Shown piece by piece: positions 4,868 to 22,254 of a stretch of DNA of 64,000 nucleotides; positions within the stretch are counted from its first letter, which is position 1, and each line of letters opens with the position of its first letter. Under the pieces are notes generated by a model. The model had not been told where the DNA came from. It searched no databases and saw nothing but the letters and a program-made list of their open reading frames with translations. Source of the DNA: an uncultured Lachnospiraceae bacterium (lineage in GTDB: Bacteria > Bacillota > Clostridia > Lachnospirales > Lachnospiraceae); the NCBI GenBank assembly GCA_947588005.1, contig CANPYE010000001.1, forward strand, positions 1 to 64,000, read 5' to 3'. A program made the position numbers and the translations under genes.

Positions 4868-5162
4868 AGGATAAAGGAACCTCCGTGATTCACAGTACGC
4901 CGGTTCGCAGTACGTCTGCGCCTCGTATATATCCGGGCCGATACCGGCAGCCGATCCGAGGCATGCGGGTGTCCCGGCATCTCAGGGCGGCATACTGCAC
5001 AATACATACGCAAACAGTATAGCACTAATTGTTGAATTTCTCAACACCCAAAATCCCATTCCGCTTGAACGCACGGCATTTATGCGGTAAAATGAGGGTG
5101 TCGCGGCATCAGGATATTTGCGGAAACACACCGCGCGGCATCGCGGCAATCAGATAAAAAGG

Positions 5163-6143
5163 ATGAAAACCATGGCAAAGATGAAAATATGCGGACTGCA
5201 GAAGACAACTCTGCTGGACTATCCGGGCAAAGTGGCGGCCACCGTGTTTCTGGGCGGCTGCAACTTCCGCTGCCCGTTCTGCCATAATTCGGATCTGCTC
5301 ACCGGCAGCGCTCCAGAGCGGATGACGCCGGAAGAACTCCTGACGTTTCTGAAACGCCGTCAGGGGATCCTGGAAGGCGTATGCATTACCGGCGGCGAAC
5401 CGACGCTGTGGCCGGAGGACGCGGCGGAGCTGATGCGCCGAATCAAGGAAATGGATTACCAGGTGAAGCTGGATACCAACGGCTACCGGCCCCAGGTTCT
5501 TAAAGATCTGTGCGGACTTGGCGTCGTGGATTATGTAGCTATGGATATCAAGGCCGGAAGACAGCATTACGCGGAAGTATGCGGACACAGTCCGATCCCT
5601 GCTCCGGCAGAACTTACCGGTGATGCGGTCCGCCATACCGGGCAGCCGGAGGAAGGCATGACAGAACCTGCAGAACCCACGGCGGCCGGCATGACGGTCC
5701 ACGCAAAACTTCCAGCCGCAGGCGCGGCGGTTCACGTGAAGCTTCCAGCGGCAGGCGCGGAGGCCCATACAGAACTCACGGCGAACGGCACAACGGTCCA
5801 CGCAAAACTCCCGGCGACAGGCGCCGCGCCCCATGCGGAGTCCCCGGCGGCAGGAACCTTCCGTCTCGCCGCCATCGAGGAAAGCGCCGCCTGGCTGATG
5901 GAAGGCCATGTGCCTTATGAATTTCGCACCACGACAGTAAAAGGAATCCACACCGCAGAGGATTTCACTGACATCGCAGCCTGGATCGGAGGCTGCGAGC
6001 GGTATTTTATCCAGGGCTTTGTGGATTCCGGCAATGTTCTGAAAAGCGGTTTTTCGGCGTATACGCGGGCCGAGCTGGACGAATTCTTAAATATCGTAAG
6101 GAAAACGATCCCCAACGCGGAGATCCGCGGCGTAGATTACTGA
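5163..6143 (+). CDS. Anaerobic ribonucleoside-triphosphate reductase activating protein-like radical SAM enzyme (NrdG2 type)
   Basis: MKICGLQKTTLLDYPGKVAATVFLGGCNFRCPFCHN (CxxxCxxC), GGEPTLW. Carries an in-frame 33-bp tandem-repeat insertion. Confidence 0.88.
   Translation: MKTMAKMKICGLQKTTLLDYPGKVAATVFLGGCNFRCPFCHNSDLLTGSAPERMTPEELLTFLKRRQGILEGVCITGGEPTLWPEDAAELMRRIKEMDYQVKLDTNGYRPQVLKDLCGLGVVDYVAMDIKAGRQHYAEVCGHSPIPAPAELTGDAVRHTGQPEEGMTEPAEPTAAGMTVHAKLPAAGAAVHVKLPAAGAEAHTELTANGTTVHAKLPATGAAPHAESPAAGTFRLAAIEESAAWLMEGHVPYEFRTTTVKGIHTAEDFTDIAAWIGGCERYFIQGFVDSGNVLKSGFSAYTRAELDEFLNIVRKTIPNAEIRGVDY
5694..5858 (+). repeat. Five tandem 33-bp coding repeats (11-aa unit, TVHAKLPAAGA-like)
   Basis: TVHAKLPAAGA / AVHVKLPAAGA / EAHTELTANGT / TVHAKLPATGA / APHAESPAAGT read directly from the sequence. 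Confidence 0.92.
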
Positions 6144-7423: not shown

Positions 7424-7617
7424 CGTTTTCTTCCCTCCCTCTCACTTCCGCTCTGTTTCTCCCGAACCGCAATCCATTTTCTCACAATGCGGCCGGACAG
7501 GCAGTCCTGTTCTGTATCACTATAATTTATGAAGAAACCGTTGCAAACATTCCGGAAAAATGGTACGATTACTATAAAGACGGCCGGGAACAAAGTTTCC
7601 GAATGGAGGTATTACAG

Positions 7618-8364
7618 ATGAAAATTTACAGAGCAGCCGATTATCAGGAAATGAGCCGAACCGCCGCCATGATCCTTGCCGCGCAGATTCAGTTGAAGCC
7701 TGACTGCGTCCTGGGTCTGGCCACCGGATCCACCCCGGTAGGGACTTACGAAGAACTGGTCCGGCAGTACCGGGCCGGGCACCTGGATTTCTCCCGGGTA
7801 AGATCCGCCAACCTGGACGAATATCGCGGACTTACGCGCGATAACGACCAGAGCTATTATTATTTCATGCAGCAGCACCTCTTTGAGCACGTGAACATCA
7901 ACCCGGAGAATACATTTATCCCCGACGGTTCCAGGCAGGACGCTGATGCCGAATGCGCCCGTTACGAGACGATTCTGGAACAACTGGGCGGCGTAGACCT
8001 GCAGATCCTGGGCCTGGGTCACAATGGCCATATCGGTTTTAATGAACCGGCGGATGCATTTGCGAAGGCCACTCACTGTGTCGATCTGACGCGCAGCACC
8101 ATCGAGGCGAACCGGCGTTTCTTCGAGAAGGAGGAGGACGTCCCCCGCCAGGCTTATTCCATGGGAATCGGCACGATCATGCGGGCAAGGAAGATTCTTC
8201 TGCTGGTCAGCGGCAGCGAGAAAGCCGCCATCCTGCATGAAGCGGTCGCCGGGCCGGTGACGCCGCGGGTTCCCGCTTCTATTCTCCAGTTCCATCCGGA
8301 TGTAACAGTGATCGCGGACGAAGCGGCGCTTTCGCGGTTTGATGCCCGACCTTTTGCGGTTTGA
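7618..8364 (+). CDS. nagB: Glucosamine-6-phosphate deaminase
   Basis: LGLATGSTPVGTYEELV, NLDEYRGL, GLGHNGHIGFNEPAD; RBS ggaggt upstream of ATG 7618. Confidence 0.95.
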   Translation: MKIYRAADYQEMSRTAAMILAAQIQLKPDCVLGLATGSTPVGTYEELVRQYRAGHLDFSRVRSANLDEYRGLTRDNDQSYYYFMQQHLFEHVNINPENTFIPDGSRQDADAECARYETILEQLGGVDLQILGLGHNGHIGFNEPADAFAKATHCVDLTRSTIEANRRFFEKEEDVPRQAYSMGIGTIMRARKILLLVSGSEKAAILHEAVAGPVTPRVPASILQFHPDVTVIADEAALSRFDARPFAV

Positions 8365-8417
8365 CGCCTGACCCCTCGTGGTCTGGCAGCTGACCTTTCG
8401 CGGTTTGACGCCTGACA
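8330..8417. repeat. Four tandem 22-bp repeats spanning the nagB stop codon
   Basis: tttcgcggtttgatgcccgacc / ttttgcggtttgacgcctgacc / cctcgtggtctggcagctgacc / tttcgcggtttgacgcctgaca. Confidence 0.92.
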
Positions 8418-14384: not shown

Positions 14385-16043
14385 TCACGCAAGTACTCGG
14401 AGCGTGACTGCGCTGCGGTCGCGCATACCCTGAATCGGAAGCTGCTGCGCTCTGTAATTCCGGATCGTATCGACGATCTCCTCCGTCAGCACCTCTCCCG
14501 GCACGACAACCGGCGTTCCGGGCGGATACAGATAGACATATTCTCCGGAAATGGATCCGGCAGCGGATTCAAGAGGAAGCGCCTGCGCCGGTCGTTCCTG
14601 CGCCTCATGAATGGGAAGGAGCGCCTGCGGACGCGGCAGCGCCGCAGAGCAGTGAACGCCGGGAGCCGGCGGCCGCTTCGCGGAATCAAGATTCGCTGAA
14701 GCAAAAGCCGTTTCTGCGGTATCGAGAGCCGCCGAGGCAGAAGCCGGTTCTGCAGCATCGAGAGCCGCCGGACCGGAGGCCAGCTTCTCATCGATCGAAA
14801 ACAGCGCCGTCTCCAACCGGTCAAATCCTTCCCGGCTGTCCATCAGCGTCGTGATGGCTGTTATGTAATCCGCGCCGCTCATTTCCATTTCCATGTGGTA
14901 ATCATGGCGAAGAAGCTCTGCCAATTCCGCCCCGGTCAGCCAGGTCCCGCCGGCCGGAAGCCGAGCGTTTCCCGCATTCACACCGCTTACGGACGCTCCG
15001 ATATTCTTCCGAGGCAGCGTTCCTGTATATTTCGTGGATATTACAAGCTTCGAAGTATCTAAATCATATATCCCGGCGCTGCCAACTGCATCTCTGTCCA
15101 GAAGCCGGAGGCAGCGAAGCTTCCGCAGCCGCCCCCGCAGGTCTGTAAGCCGGGCGGCAAAATACCGCATCTCATCTCGGCCATCACCCGCCATATATTC
15201 AATGCATCTCTCAATTCCGGCCATCAGCACATAGGAAGGACTGCTGGTCTGAAAGACCTGCAGAAAATATTTCAGGCGATCGGTATCGACAAGACTGCCC
15301 TGTACATGCAAAAGAGCCGTCTGGGTAAAGGCCGGGAGCGTTTTATGTAAACTTTGAATCACAATATCCGCACCCAATTCCAGCGCGGAAGCCGGGAACA
15401 TTTCCCCAAACGGAAAATGAGCACCGTGGGCCTCATCCACGATCAGCGGTATGCCGTGCCGGTGACAGACGCCGGCGATCCCGCGGACATCCGACACCAC
15501 GCCGTCATAGGTCGGAGAAGTAATAAAAACGGCGGCCGGCAAATCATCCGCATTTATCAACATTTTTTCAATATTCTGCAGCAATAATCCACCTTGCAGC
15601 CCGAAATCTTCAATGATCTGTGGATAAATATACCGAATATTCAGTTCATTCAGCGCCGCCGCATGGTACGCAGCCTTATGGCTATTGCGGGCTAACAGGA
15701 TCGTGCCGCCCCGCGGAACCGCCGCGCAGATCGCGGCAAGCACGCCGCAGGTACTTCCATTTACCAGATAATACGTGTGCCCGGCGCCGTACACGGACGC
15801 GGCCCAGTCCATGGATTCGAGCAGAACGCCCTCCGCATGATGGAGATTATCAAAGCCGTCGATCTCCGTGATATCGATGCTGTACGGATTGGGAAATTCC
15901 GCCGTAAATCCCGCTTTCGTCCGGCGCTTATGCCCCGGCATGTGGAAAGGGTAAACATCGGAACGACAATATTCATTCAACTGCCGGTATAACCGGGGGC
16001 GCGGAAGCCGTTCTTCCATGTCATGCATCCCTCTCATCCGCAA
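14385..16043 (-). CDS. Orn/Lys/Arg decarboxylase-family PLP enzyme
   Basis: YPFHMPGHKRR...NGSTCGVLAAI...DEAHGAHFPFG...SLHKTLPAFTQTALLH (PLP Lys). Start could be 16043, 16028 or 16019. Confidence 0.9.
   Translation of the reverse strand: MRMRGMHDMEERLPRPRLYRQLNEYCRSDVYPFHMPGHKRRTKAGFTAEFPNPYSIDITEIDGFDNLHHAEGVLLESMDWAASVYGAGHTYYLVNGSTCGVLAAICAAVPRGGTILLARNSHKAAYHAAALNELNIRYIYPQIIEDFGLQGGLLLQNIEKMLINADDLPAAVFITSPTYDGVVSDVRGIAGVCHRHGIPLIVDEAHGAHFPFGEMFPASALELGADIVIQSLHKTLPAFTQTALLHVQGSLVDTDRLKYFLQVFQTSSPSYVLMAGIERCIEYMAGDGRDEMRYFAARLTDLRGRLRKLRCLRLLDRDAVGSAGIYDLDTSKLVISTKYTGTLPRKNIGASVSGVNAGNARLPAGGTWLTGAELAELLRHDYHMEMEMSGADYITAITTLMDSREGFDRLETALFSIDEKLASGPAALDAAEPASASAALDTAETAFASANLDSAKRPPAPGVHCSAALPRPQALLPIHEAQERPAQALPLESAAGSISGEYVYLYPPGTPVVVPGEVLTEEIVDTIRNYRAQQLPIQGMRDRSAVTLRVLA
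14662..14769 (-). repeat. About three degenerate 36-bp tandem coding repeats (Ala-rich, ALDxAExAxAS)
   Basis: gaagcaaaagccgtttctgcggtatcgagagccgcc / gaggcagaagccggttctgcagcatcgagagccgcc plus one more degenerate copy. Confidence 0.8.
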
Positions 16044-17537: not shown

Positions 17538-18350
17538 ATGTTTTTCCCAAATTGTGGGTATAATTGTTCAGCTGATAACTGCTGCGCCTCCGGCGGAAAT
17601 ACGGCTGCCGGCCTGAACTGCGGTATACCGGCATGCCCGACCCCCTGTCCATCCTGCTGTCAGGGACCGGTTGGACCTGAAGGACCACAGGGGCCGGTTG
17701 GGCCCGAAGGGCCAGAAGGGCCCCAAGGGCCGCAAGGACTGACCGGGCCTCAGGGACCTCAAGGACCCGCTGGACCGCAGGGCTCCCAGGGGCCGCAGGG
17801 CATAGCAGGACCAGAAGGACCTCAAGGGCCAGTTGGACCGGCCGGACCAGAAGGACCTCAAGGACCACAGGGTCCCGCCGGGCCTCAGGGGCCGATGGGA
17901 CCAGTCAGACCAATAAATGTCATACTGCCCGAGGTAAGCGTCCTTAACGCAGTCAATACTGCCGCCCAGTCCGTTGTTTCCTGCACAGCTCCGCTGCTGC
18001 TCGCCTCCACTCCGGTTCAGGCCGGTACAGCGATCACACATGACGCAGGCAGAGGCATTTTCACGCTGAGCGAAGATGGTCTGTACGAAATTTCCTACCA
18101 TACCACTGTAACCGCCACTGCCTGCGCTCCGGCGACCGTTACCCTGGCTCTGAGCAGCGGCTGCGCCGTCATCGACGGCACTACCGCCTCGGCTTATGTG
18201 GCAGCAGACAACGCTTCGGTATCCGTATCCGCTTCCGGCATTGTCAATGTAACCGGCGGCATTCCGGCGGCTATTTCCCTGGTCTCACCGGCCGGTTTTG
18301 AAAACGCTTCCTACAGCAACACCGCAGTAACCATCCGAAAACTGCACTGA
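17538..18350 (+). CDS. Collagen-like (GXX repeat) BclA-type exosporium/spore-surface protein
   Basis: Cys-rich N terminus, about 28 GPx triplets, then a BclA-like C-terminal domain ([19 protein letters not shown]). Confidence 0.88.
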
Positions 18351-19641: not shown

Positions 19642-22254
19642 TCAAGACGAACACGCCTCGCACTCCTCCACTTCCAGGCTCTTAGACCGAATATAATAAA
19701 TCGTCTTCACGCCTTCTTCCCACGCAAGAATATACAGCTTCAGCACCTGGCTCAGCGTAAACTCATTCGTAATGTACAGATTCATGCTCTGCGCCTGATC
19801 GATATGTCTCTGCCTCACCCCGCAGGCCCGAATCGACCAGGTCTGATCGATCAGATGCGCATTCTTATAATACCAAAACGTATCCATCGACAGCTCCGGC
19901 GCCACGCGCGGCATCAGTCCATTCTTCTTCTCCTCCAGGAAATACCGGTTCATGATCGGATCCAGTCCCGCCGTCGTCCCTGCGATAATACTGGTGCTGC
20001 TGGTGGGCGCCACCGCCAGAAGATAGCCGTTGCGCAGACCGTTGGCCGCTACTTTCGCCGCCAGCGCGCTCCACCGCTCGTCCGTCAGGTTCCGCTTCTC
20101 AAAATACGCCCCCGTCTGCCAGTCGCTTCCCTCGAAATACAGGTATTTCCCTTTCTCGATGGCATAGTCGCAGCTGGCCTCGATCGCCGCGTAATGGATA
20201 TCCGCGAACACCTTCTCCGCAAATTCCAGATGCTCCTCGCTCTCCCATTTGATATGATGCTTCGCCAGCATATGATGATAACCGCTGACGCCCAGCCCGA
20301 TAGGACGGTATTTCTCATTATTGATCTTCGCGTAGGGCACCGGGAAGAAATTCAGGTCGATCACATTATCCAGGGCCCGCACCACGCTGCGGGTTACCTC
20401 GGTGATCTCCGCCCGGTTCTCCACATCGATATTGCCCAGGGACAGACTGGCCAGGTTGCAGACGACAAATTCGCCTGGCTTCGTCACCGTGACCACCACG
20501 GTCTCCCCGTCCACCGTCTCGATCCGCTGCTCCACCGACGAGATCGCGCTCATATTCTGGGCAATCTCTGTACACAGGTTGCTGCAGTAGATGACGCCTC
20601 TGTGCCCGTTGGGATTCATCCGGTTTACATGGTCCCGGTTAAATGTAAACGGCGTTCCGGTCTCCACCGCGCTCTTAAGGATCAGACGGATGATCTCTTT
20701 GATCGGGATCACACGCTTGCTGATGCGCATATCGTTGACGCAGTCCAGATACCGCTCCGTCCACTCGTCGCCGAAATAGTCCTCCAGCGCATAGCCCTTG
20801 ATCGTCAGGATCTCGTGGGGACACATCAGATACCAGTCCCCGTTCCGGTTGTCCCTGGCCTGCTGCCAGAAATAATCCGGATAGCACACTGCCGGGAACA
20901 CATCGTGGGCCTTCATCCGGTCGTCGCCGTTATTGGTCCTCAGATTCAGAAACTCCGGCAGATCCCGGTGCCACACATCCAGATAGACGGCCACCGCGCC
21001 CTGGCGCATGCCCAGCTGATCCACCGCCACCGCCGTATCATTAGCCAGACGGATCCAGCGGATGACGCCGCCGGCCGCGCCCTCGAAGCCGCGGATCGAG
21101 CTTCCATTGGCACGAACTTTTCCGAAATATAATCCCATGCCGCCGCCGAACTTGCTGACCTTGGCAAAATTGTCGATGCTGCGGTAGATTCCATTTAAGC
21201 TGTCCGGCACTGTATCGATGAAGCAGGACGAAAGCTGGTGATAGGGCTTACGGGCGTTGGAAAGCGTCGGCGTCGCCATGGTCACCTGCAGCCTGCTCAG
21301 CATATCGTAGAACCGTTTCACCCAATACCCCCGGTTCTGCTCCTTCATCGCCAGATGCATGGCTATGCCCATGAACATCTCCTGCGGCGTCTCGACCGGC
21401 ACGCCCTTGTGGGTGCGGATCACATAACGATTCAGCAGAAGCTCCAGTCCGGAGTAGTTCATCAGATTATTCCGCTCCGGATCGAGCCACTGCTCAAACT
21501 GACCGACTTCCTCCCGGGTATAATTCTGTAAAATATACGGTCCGTACAATCCCTGATCCGTCAGGTAAGCGATTTTCTCATAGAAACTATGGATATGCAG
21601 AGCATCCATGGAATCCTTAAGCCGCGCCTCAAAGCCCAGAAGCAGAAGCCGTGCCGCGATCATCTCCCAACGGGGCGCCTCCTGGGTCGTCAGCTCCACT
21701 GCCGATTTGGTCAGAATATTTAATTTCTCCCGCTCTGTCATATCCGGCTTAGACAGAGCCTGGAACTTGGCGGAAAGGTATTCCAAATTATATTCCTCTG
21801 CGTCAAATTCCTTCTGTACGCGAGTCAGCACCCATTCCAGCTGAGCCGCCTTCTCCGTATTCTCGAAGAACCGCATGATCTCCCGGCGGGTGCGGCGCTT
21901 CTTCGAACGCTCCTCGCGGTATAGGATATAGCTTCGCACGACGCGGTAATGACCTTCCTCCATCAGCGTCTGCTCCACCAGGTCCTGAATCTCCTCTACG
22001 GAGAGCTTCAGCTCCTGCTGCCATCCCCCGGGGAATTTTCGCTCTACATGCAAAAGGATCCGATTCAGCTCCTCCTCGCTTACCGGAATACCCACGCTCA
22101 CAAATGCTTTCGAAATGGCGTTCTTGATCTTCTCCGGGCAGTATTCCTGCTCAGAGCGGTCCCGTTTCATAATGTTCATGGCGTTCTTCTCCCTTGCTTC
22201 TCTTTTCTCTTCTGACTGCCGGATACCCGCTTTTCTGTATACTGCAATATTCAT
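19642..22254 (-). CDS. nrdA: Class I ribonucleotide reductase alpha subunit with ATP-cone
   Basis: KRDRSEQEYCPEKIKNAISKAF ATP-cone; ATPTLSNARKPYHQLSSCF; NLCTEI; C-terminal EACSS; next to nrdB. Confidence 0.94.
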   Translation of the reverse strand: MNIAVYRKAGIRQSEEKREAREKNAMNIMKRDRSEQEYCPEKIKNAISKAFVSVGIPVSEEELNRILLHVERKFPGGWQQELKLSVEEIQDLVEQTLMEEGHYRVVRSYILYREERSKKRRTRREIMRFFENTEKAAQLEWVLTRVQKEFDAEEYNLEYLSAKFQALSKPDMTEREKLNILTKSAVELTTQEAPRWEMIAARLLLLGFEARLKDSMDALHIHSFYEKIAYLTDQGLYGPYILQNYTREEVGQFEQWLDPERNNLMNYSGLELLLNRYVIRTHKGVPVETPQEMFMGIAMHLAMKEQNRGYWVKRFYDMLSRLQVTMATPTLSNARKPYHQLSSCFIDTVPDSLNGIYRSIDNFAKVSKFGGGMGLYFGKVRANGSSIRGFEGAAGGVIRWIRLANDTAVAVDQLGMRQGAVAVYLDVWHRDLPEFLNLRTNNGDDRMKAHDVFPAVCYPDYFWQQARDNRNGDWYLMCPHEILTIKGYALEDYFGDEWTERYLDCVNDMRISKRVIPIKEIIRLILKSAVETGTPFTFNRDHVNRMNPNGHRGVIYCSNLCTEIAQNMSAISSVEQRIETVDGETVVVTVTKPGEFVVCNLASLSLGNIDVENRAEITEVTRSVVRALDNVIDLNFFPVPYAKINNEKYRPIGLGVSGYHHMLAKHHIKWESEEHLEFAEKVFADIHYAAIEASCDYAIEKGKYLYFEGSDWQTGAYFEKRNLTDERWSALAAKVAANGLRNGYLLAVAPTSSTSIIAGTTAGLDPIMNRYFLEEKKNGLMPRVAPELSMDTFWYYKNAHLIDQTWSIRACGVRQRHIDQAQSMNLYITNEFTLSQVLKLYILAWEEGVKTIYYIRSKSLEVEECEACSS

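Follow-up and report, generated by a model that had tools for sequence, protein, structure and literature searches.

The nrdG2 gene of the window, the whole stretch of 64,000 nucleotides that was analyzed, carries an in-frame insert of 91 codons (273 bp; 5586–5858, + strand) that is built largely from tandem repeats. Quite probably, NrdG2 is a working enzyme in which the insert forms an inflated surface loop that is intrinsically disordered, has grown by tandem duplication of whole codons and is tolerated. The window is part of contig C1 (82,108 bp), which belongs to a draft genome of 3.05 Mb (G000; 81% complete, 3.8% contamination).

The nrdG2 gene and its insert

The gene (5172–6143, + strand) encodes an anaerobic ribonucleoside-triphosphate reductase activating protein of 323 amino acids, as identified by TIGR02495, PF04055 and its orthologues. 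Its start, the ATG at 5172, was picked from the starts of the orthologues, the mechanical start being the TTG at 5118. The original prediction of an NrdG2-type activase is in agreement with a TIGR02495 match of 184.8 bits (curated cut-off: 131.15), which falls into two stretches. The CxxxCxxC motif of the [4Fe-4S] cluster (C30, C34 and C37; 5259–5282, +) is invariant across an alignment of 43 sequences, as are D125 and K127 of the D-I-K motif (residues 125–127; 5544–5552, +), which ends the strand (121–125) preceding the loop. The C-terminal half of the enzyme, which according to alignment and AlphaFold2 runs from helix 232–243 on (5859–6140, +), includes the invariant E250, R252-T253-T254 and Q281, and all invariant columns and catalytic motifs of NrdG2 in this alignment are kept in the window protein. 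The reading frame is open in all sister species, and the dN/dS of the core is 0.037–0.042 between the window gene and its closest species, G011 and G014. Judged from its sequence, the core is under strong purifying selection and the enzyme looks intact and functional; a non-functional gene, which had been named beforehand as a ground for dismissing the loop, is not what these data suggest. No other NrdG-type activase was found in the G000 genome. A long open frame that lies antisense to nrdG2 and spans the insert (5109–5951, − strand) most likely arose as a side effect of GC-rich codon usage.

The insert (residues 139–229) occupies the site of an 8-residue linker in relatives. Measured from the conserved glycine to the following helix, the linker of the window protein is 88 residues longer, which fits with the originally noted 80 or so extra residues in frame. 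The five 33-bp copies reported for 5694–5858 (+) are exactly there, as core units TVHAKLPAAGA, AVHVKLPAAGA, EAHTELTANGT, TVHAKLPATGA and APHAESPAAGT (TRF and phase analysis), but they are only part of an array that comprises eight units and has a super-period of 99 bp. The three units that precede the core ones (IPAPAELTGDA, VRHTGQPEEGM and TEPAEPTAAGM; 5595–5693, +) are degenerate and keep the same 33-bp phase, and units −1, 0 and 1 pair with units 2, 3 and 4 as 99-bp blocks, forming a super-repeat (5661–5759 and 5760–5858, +) with 69 of 99 bases identical. TRF reported a period of 33 at 5695–5828 and, as the better solution, a period of 99 at 5671–5854 (score 228). Identity at lag 33 within the insert was 0.56, compared to an expected 0.32 from codon shuffling; the highest value among 5000 shuffles was 0.43, and none of them reached the best lag of the insert. 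The array exhibits what is expected of a coding tandem repeat, namely units above chance, a period that is a multiple of three and an open frame. Given an open frame and exact repeats of no more than 17 bp in the insert, a collapse or expansion of the array during assembly appears unlikely. A search of the insert DNA against its own genome (81% complete) yielded a single match and no second copy, which argues against a dispersed element.

The AlphaFold2 model of the window protein exhibits block means (pLDDT) of 90–98 for the core (dropping to 59 at the very C-terminus) and of 30–57 for the loop, which is placed between helices 130–136 and 232–243. The loop had originally been assigned to the inside of the catalytic barrel; the model instead places the disorder between two helices, of which the first is the short one after the DIK strand. 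The top fold match in Foldseek was the PFL-activating enzyme (3c8f/3cb8; for 3c8f E = 3.5e-11, TMt 0.78). According to the model, the fold is PFL-activase-like with a disordered loop between two helices, and by homology this loop would emerge on the catalytic face.

Differences among the units are commonest at third codon positions (0.49–0.52 vs. 0.20–0.37; p = 0.004–0.017), in a test that is rough as the units share ancestry. Pooled among the five core units, pN is 0.27 and pS 0.55. His-3, Ala-8 and Gly-10 persist across the core units, with changes at third positions. Together with the third-position excess, this persistence suggests some constraint on the loop residues, of which the loop is perhaps not free.

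Loop length among relatives and the partner enzyme

That such a loop is unusual, as had been claimed, holds for its length: from DIK to EFRTT, the window protein has 121 residues, while 32–34 were counted for 96 proteins out of a set of 111 other clostridial NrdG2. It is not unique, however, as sister species carry shorter loops of graded length, which also speaks against the possibility, raised beforehand, that all close orthologues lack the insert. The linker has 8 residues in G008, G017, G020, G023 and G025, while within the window's subclade it has 9 in G012, 14 in G001, 16 in G018, 24 in G021, 28 in G004, 31 in G014, 40 in G011 and 96 in the window. In G002, nrdG2 lies on two contigs, each of which breaks off within the loop; with 34 + 24 residues seen, the linker there has at least 58 residues, and the loop has its own, different 45-bp repeat with a 22-bp exact duplication. 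Relative to the 8-residue linker, the sister species have gained 1, 6, 8, 16, 20, 23 and 32 residues, and G002 no fewer than 50, as compared to 88 in the window; with one genome compared per species, this is variation between species. The window loop shares weak homology with the loop of G011 (p = 0.011), and its homology with the loops of G014 and G004 was not significant.

When 150 genomes of this family were searched, matches were about 570 bases long for almost every NrdG2 that scored above the cut-off. Nine of these genomes, most of them with longer matches, were examined more closely, and the long readable linkers among them (e.g., in G118, G199 and G147) include extra residues at the same site. 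In a tree built from the core only, the graded loops are nested, with the longest ones (G000, G011, G014 and G004) forming one cluster, and its 69 sequences require a minimum of eight switches between short and long loops. Other lineages have lengthened the same NrdG2 site independently.

NrdD is present in all 26 of 26 genus genomes. In G000, about 370 bp with stop codons split the copy on contig C3, and another fragment lies at a contig end. A compensating insert in NrdD was considered and rejected, as stop codons occur in the gap of the C3 copy and TRF detected no repeat within it. This gap (L128:1205–1576) has continuous NrdD coding sequence on both sides and includes, by eye, a group I intron-like stretch (AGTTCAACGACTATCC); an Rfam search of the gap yielded no credible match. 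It could be an intron. As a class II ribonucleotide reductase gene (NrdJ; 19642–22254, − strand) is encoded in the same window, class III activity may be non-essential.

Loop growth in other genes

The lengthening of loops is not specific to NrdG2. The shikimate dehydrogenase (AroE) of G000 exhibits a 36-bp tandem duplication and extra residues between NTLVRLPEG and GYNTD. Outside the subclade, this stretch comprises 18 residues in 15 genus members; in nine subclade species, its length is 24, 25, 25, 31, 31, 38, 40, 47 and 61 residues, with one further genome lacking a readable match. The nine species with a lengthened AroE are exactly the nine with a longer NrdG2 linker, and the lengths of the two loops within the subclade showed no significant correlation (rho = 0.51, p = 0.16). 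In the AroE frame of G000 (L203:17003–18133, contig C23), it is the NTLVRLPEG segment that is tandemly duplicated, and the loop has 61 residues vs. 18 in outside relatives.

The Orn/Lys/Arg (OKR) decarboxylase of the window (14385–16043, − strand) has several in-frame loops that are hypervariable among sister species and include repeats rich in Ala, Ser and Pro; repeats are present in G000 and G004. It was rejected as a clean marker of the subclade, as the outside relatives G019 and G020 are also long-framed (635 and 717). Stretches built from repeats were also seen in the MalA, RsmF and AAA proteins of G000, and other inserts in RecD2 and RqcH. A MalA-type alpha-glucosidase (L132:12666–15062, − strand; contig C7) contains about four 15-aa repeats (AALSAATEDASAAGK) within its N-terminal part, and an AAA ATPase-like frame (L195:403–2391; contig C15) contains a 23-aa unit about four times (KPAAGASCAAAGEAGTEGTPVDG) in its middle.

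When 96 orthologous frames were compared without bias, 15 had an insert of 8 aa or more on the window side vs. 7 on the other. As some of these frames are spurious, the claim of a genome-wide excess of inserts is kept at moderate strength. A generally raised repeat density was rejected as an explanation: in sampled stretches, G000 had 17.5 repeats per 100 kb vs. 12–13.5 in G019, G008 and G002, which is a modest excess. Tentatively, loop inflation might be a trait of one whole Lachnospiraceae subclade, by which altered duplication or repair, or relaxed selection, would continually extend disordered loops in many conserved enzymes in parallel; NrdG2 and AroE would then serve as its clocks.

The window has further features of note. 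A 22-bp tandem repeat with four copies (8329–8416) overlaps the end of the frame at 7603–8364, likely nagB from its sequence, and the gap that follows it. A collagen-like GXX-repeat protein with a weak match to the BclA C-terminal domain is located at 17538–18350, and the bacterial large signal recognition particle RNA (RF01854, 196.8 bits) at 845–1106 (− strand).

Origin of the loop and known systems

The linker site, with 8 residues in most relatives, has been lengthened stepwise within one subclade of the genus, each time by whole codons. As the anatomy of the array suggests, the units would stem from tandem duplication, be it by replication slippage or by unequal recombination, and lengths that break the frame would be purged by selection. 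The loop would be tolerated because of its position between two helices, the short one that comes after the DIK strand and its successor, with the core (cluster, SAM site and barrel) folding around it, and NrdG2 would still activate NrdD. The same process would act on other permissive loops, as shown for AroE and seen in the OKR decarboxylase, RecD2, RqcH, RsmF and MalA, and the cause of the inflation would therefore lie at the level of the lineage rather than in NrdG2 itself.

Alternatively, the loop might be adaptive. Situated right after the DIK strand and a short helix, and thus by homology at the catalytic face where the glycyl-radical enzyme docks, it could modulate the binding of NrdD, the supply of metal or cluster by its regularly spaced His residues, or solubility. 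The third-position excess, the conservation of His and Gly across the units and the lengthening of the same site in several lineages would fit with this idea. However, the loops of sister species differ strongly in both length and sequence, the His spacing is not preserved between species, AlphaFold2 yields no confident structure for the loop, and AroE, an unrelated enzyme, is inflated in the same species. An adaptive role is considered rather improbable.

Far less probable still is a decaying gene or an assembly artefact, the latter having been raised already in the original prediction. The incompleteness and contamination of the G000 draft, the class II enzyme as an available back-up and the G002 contigs that break inside the loop could be taken as hints in this direction, but a core dN/dS of about 0.04, a complete set of catalytic residues and a frame that is open in all sister species do not fit with decay, and neither the short exact repeats (17 bp at most) nor the graded loops in separate genomes fit with an artefact. 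Least likely of all appears the in-frame insertion of a mobile repeat element, similar to a Rickettsia palindromic element, into nrdG2. An in-frame insertion within a conserved gene and inserts in other G000 genes would be expected from such an element; yet the latter differ in repeat unit and length, the search of its own genome (81% complete) revealed no second copy, and the loop grows gradually among sister species.

Closely related enzymes offer a natural series in which a single site is graded from 0 to 88 additional residues, and with which the tolerance of a radical-SAM activase for disorder near its partner-binding face could be tested. The subclade is likewise one in which loop growth in core enzymes is traceable stepwise across unrelated genes.

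No report of a comparable NrdG2 loop was found in the literature searched. With other NrdG2/TIGR02495 proteins, the window protein shares a score above the cut-off, the CxxxCxxC, GGEP, DTNG, DIK and RTT motifs and the overall fold, and it differs from them by its repeat-built disordered loop and by 121 instead of 32–34 residues from DIK to EFRT. Rickettsia palindromic elements are known to bring extra in-frame sequence into conserved genes, as does the window insert, which, unlike these elements, has no dispersed copies and expands through local tandem units. In prokaryotes, satellites whose units are long mostly have lengths divisible by three and are located within genes (PMC6749651); the window array resembles them with its intragenic units of more than 30 nt and a multiple of three, whereas the examples considered from that work are mostly repeat-domain and surface proteins and the window array is embedded in the fold of a conserved cytosolic enzyme. 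Protein repeats are, in general, enriched in disorder and biased toward protein ends (PMC7230257). The bifidobacterial NrdD carries a lineage-specific surface insert of 43 aa (PMC5535262) and is similar to the window case in that both are large, lineage-specific surface-loop inserts of the class III ribonucleotide reductase system. The signature indels of ribonucleotide reductases are, however, fixed and conserved throughout an order (PMC5535262), whereas the loop of the window activase differs from one sister species to the next in length as well as in sequence.
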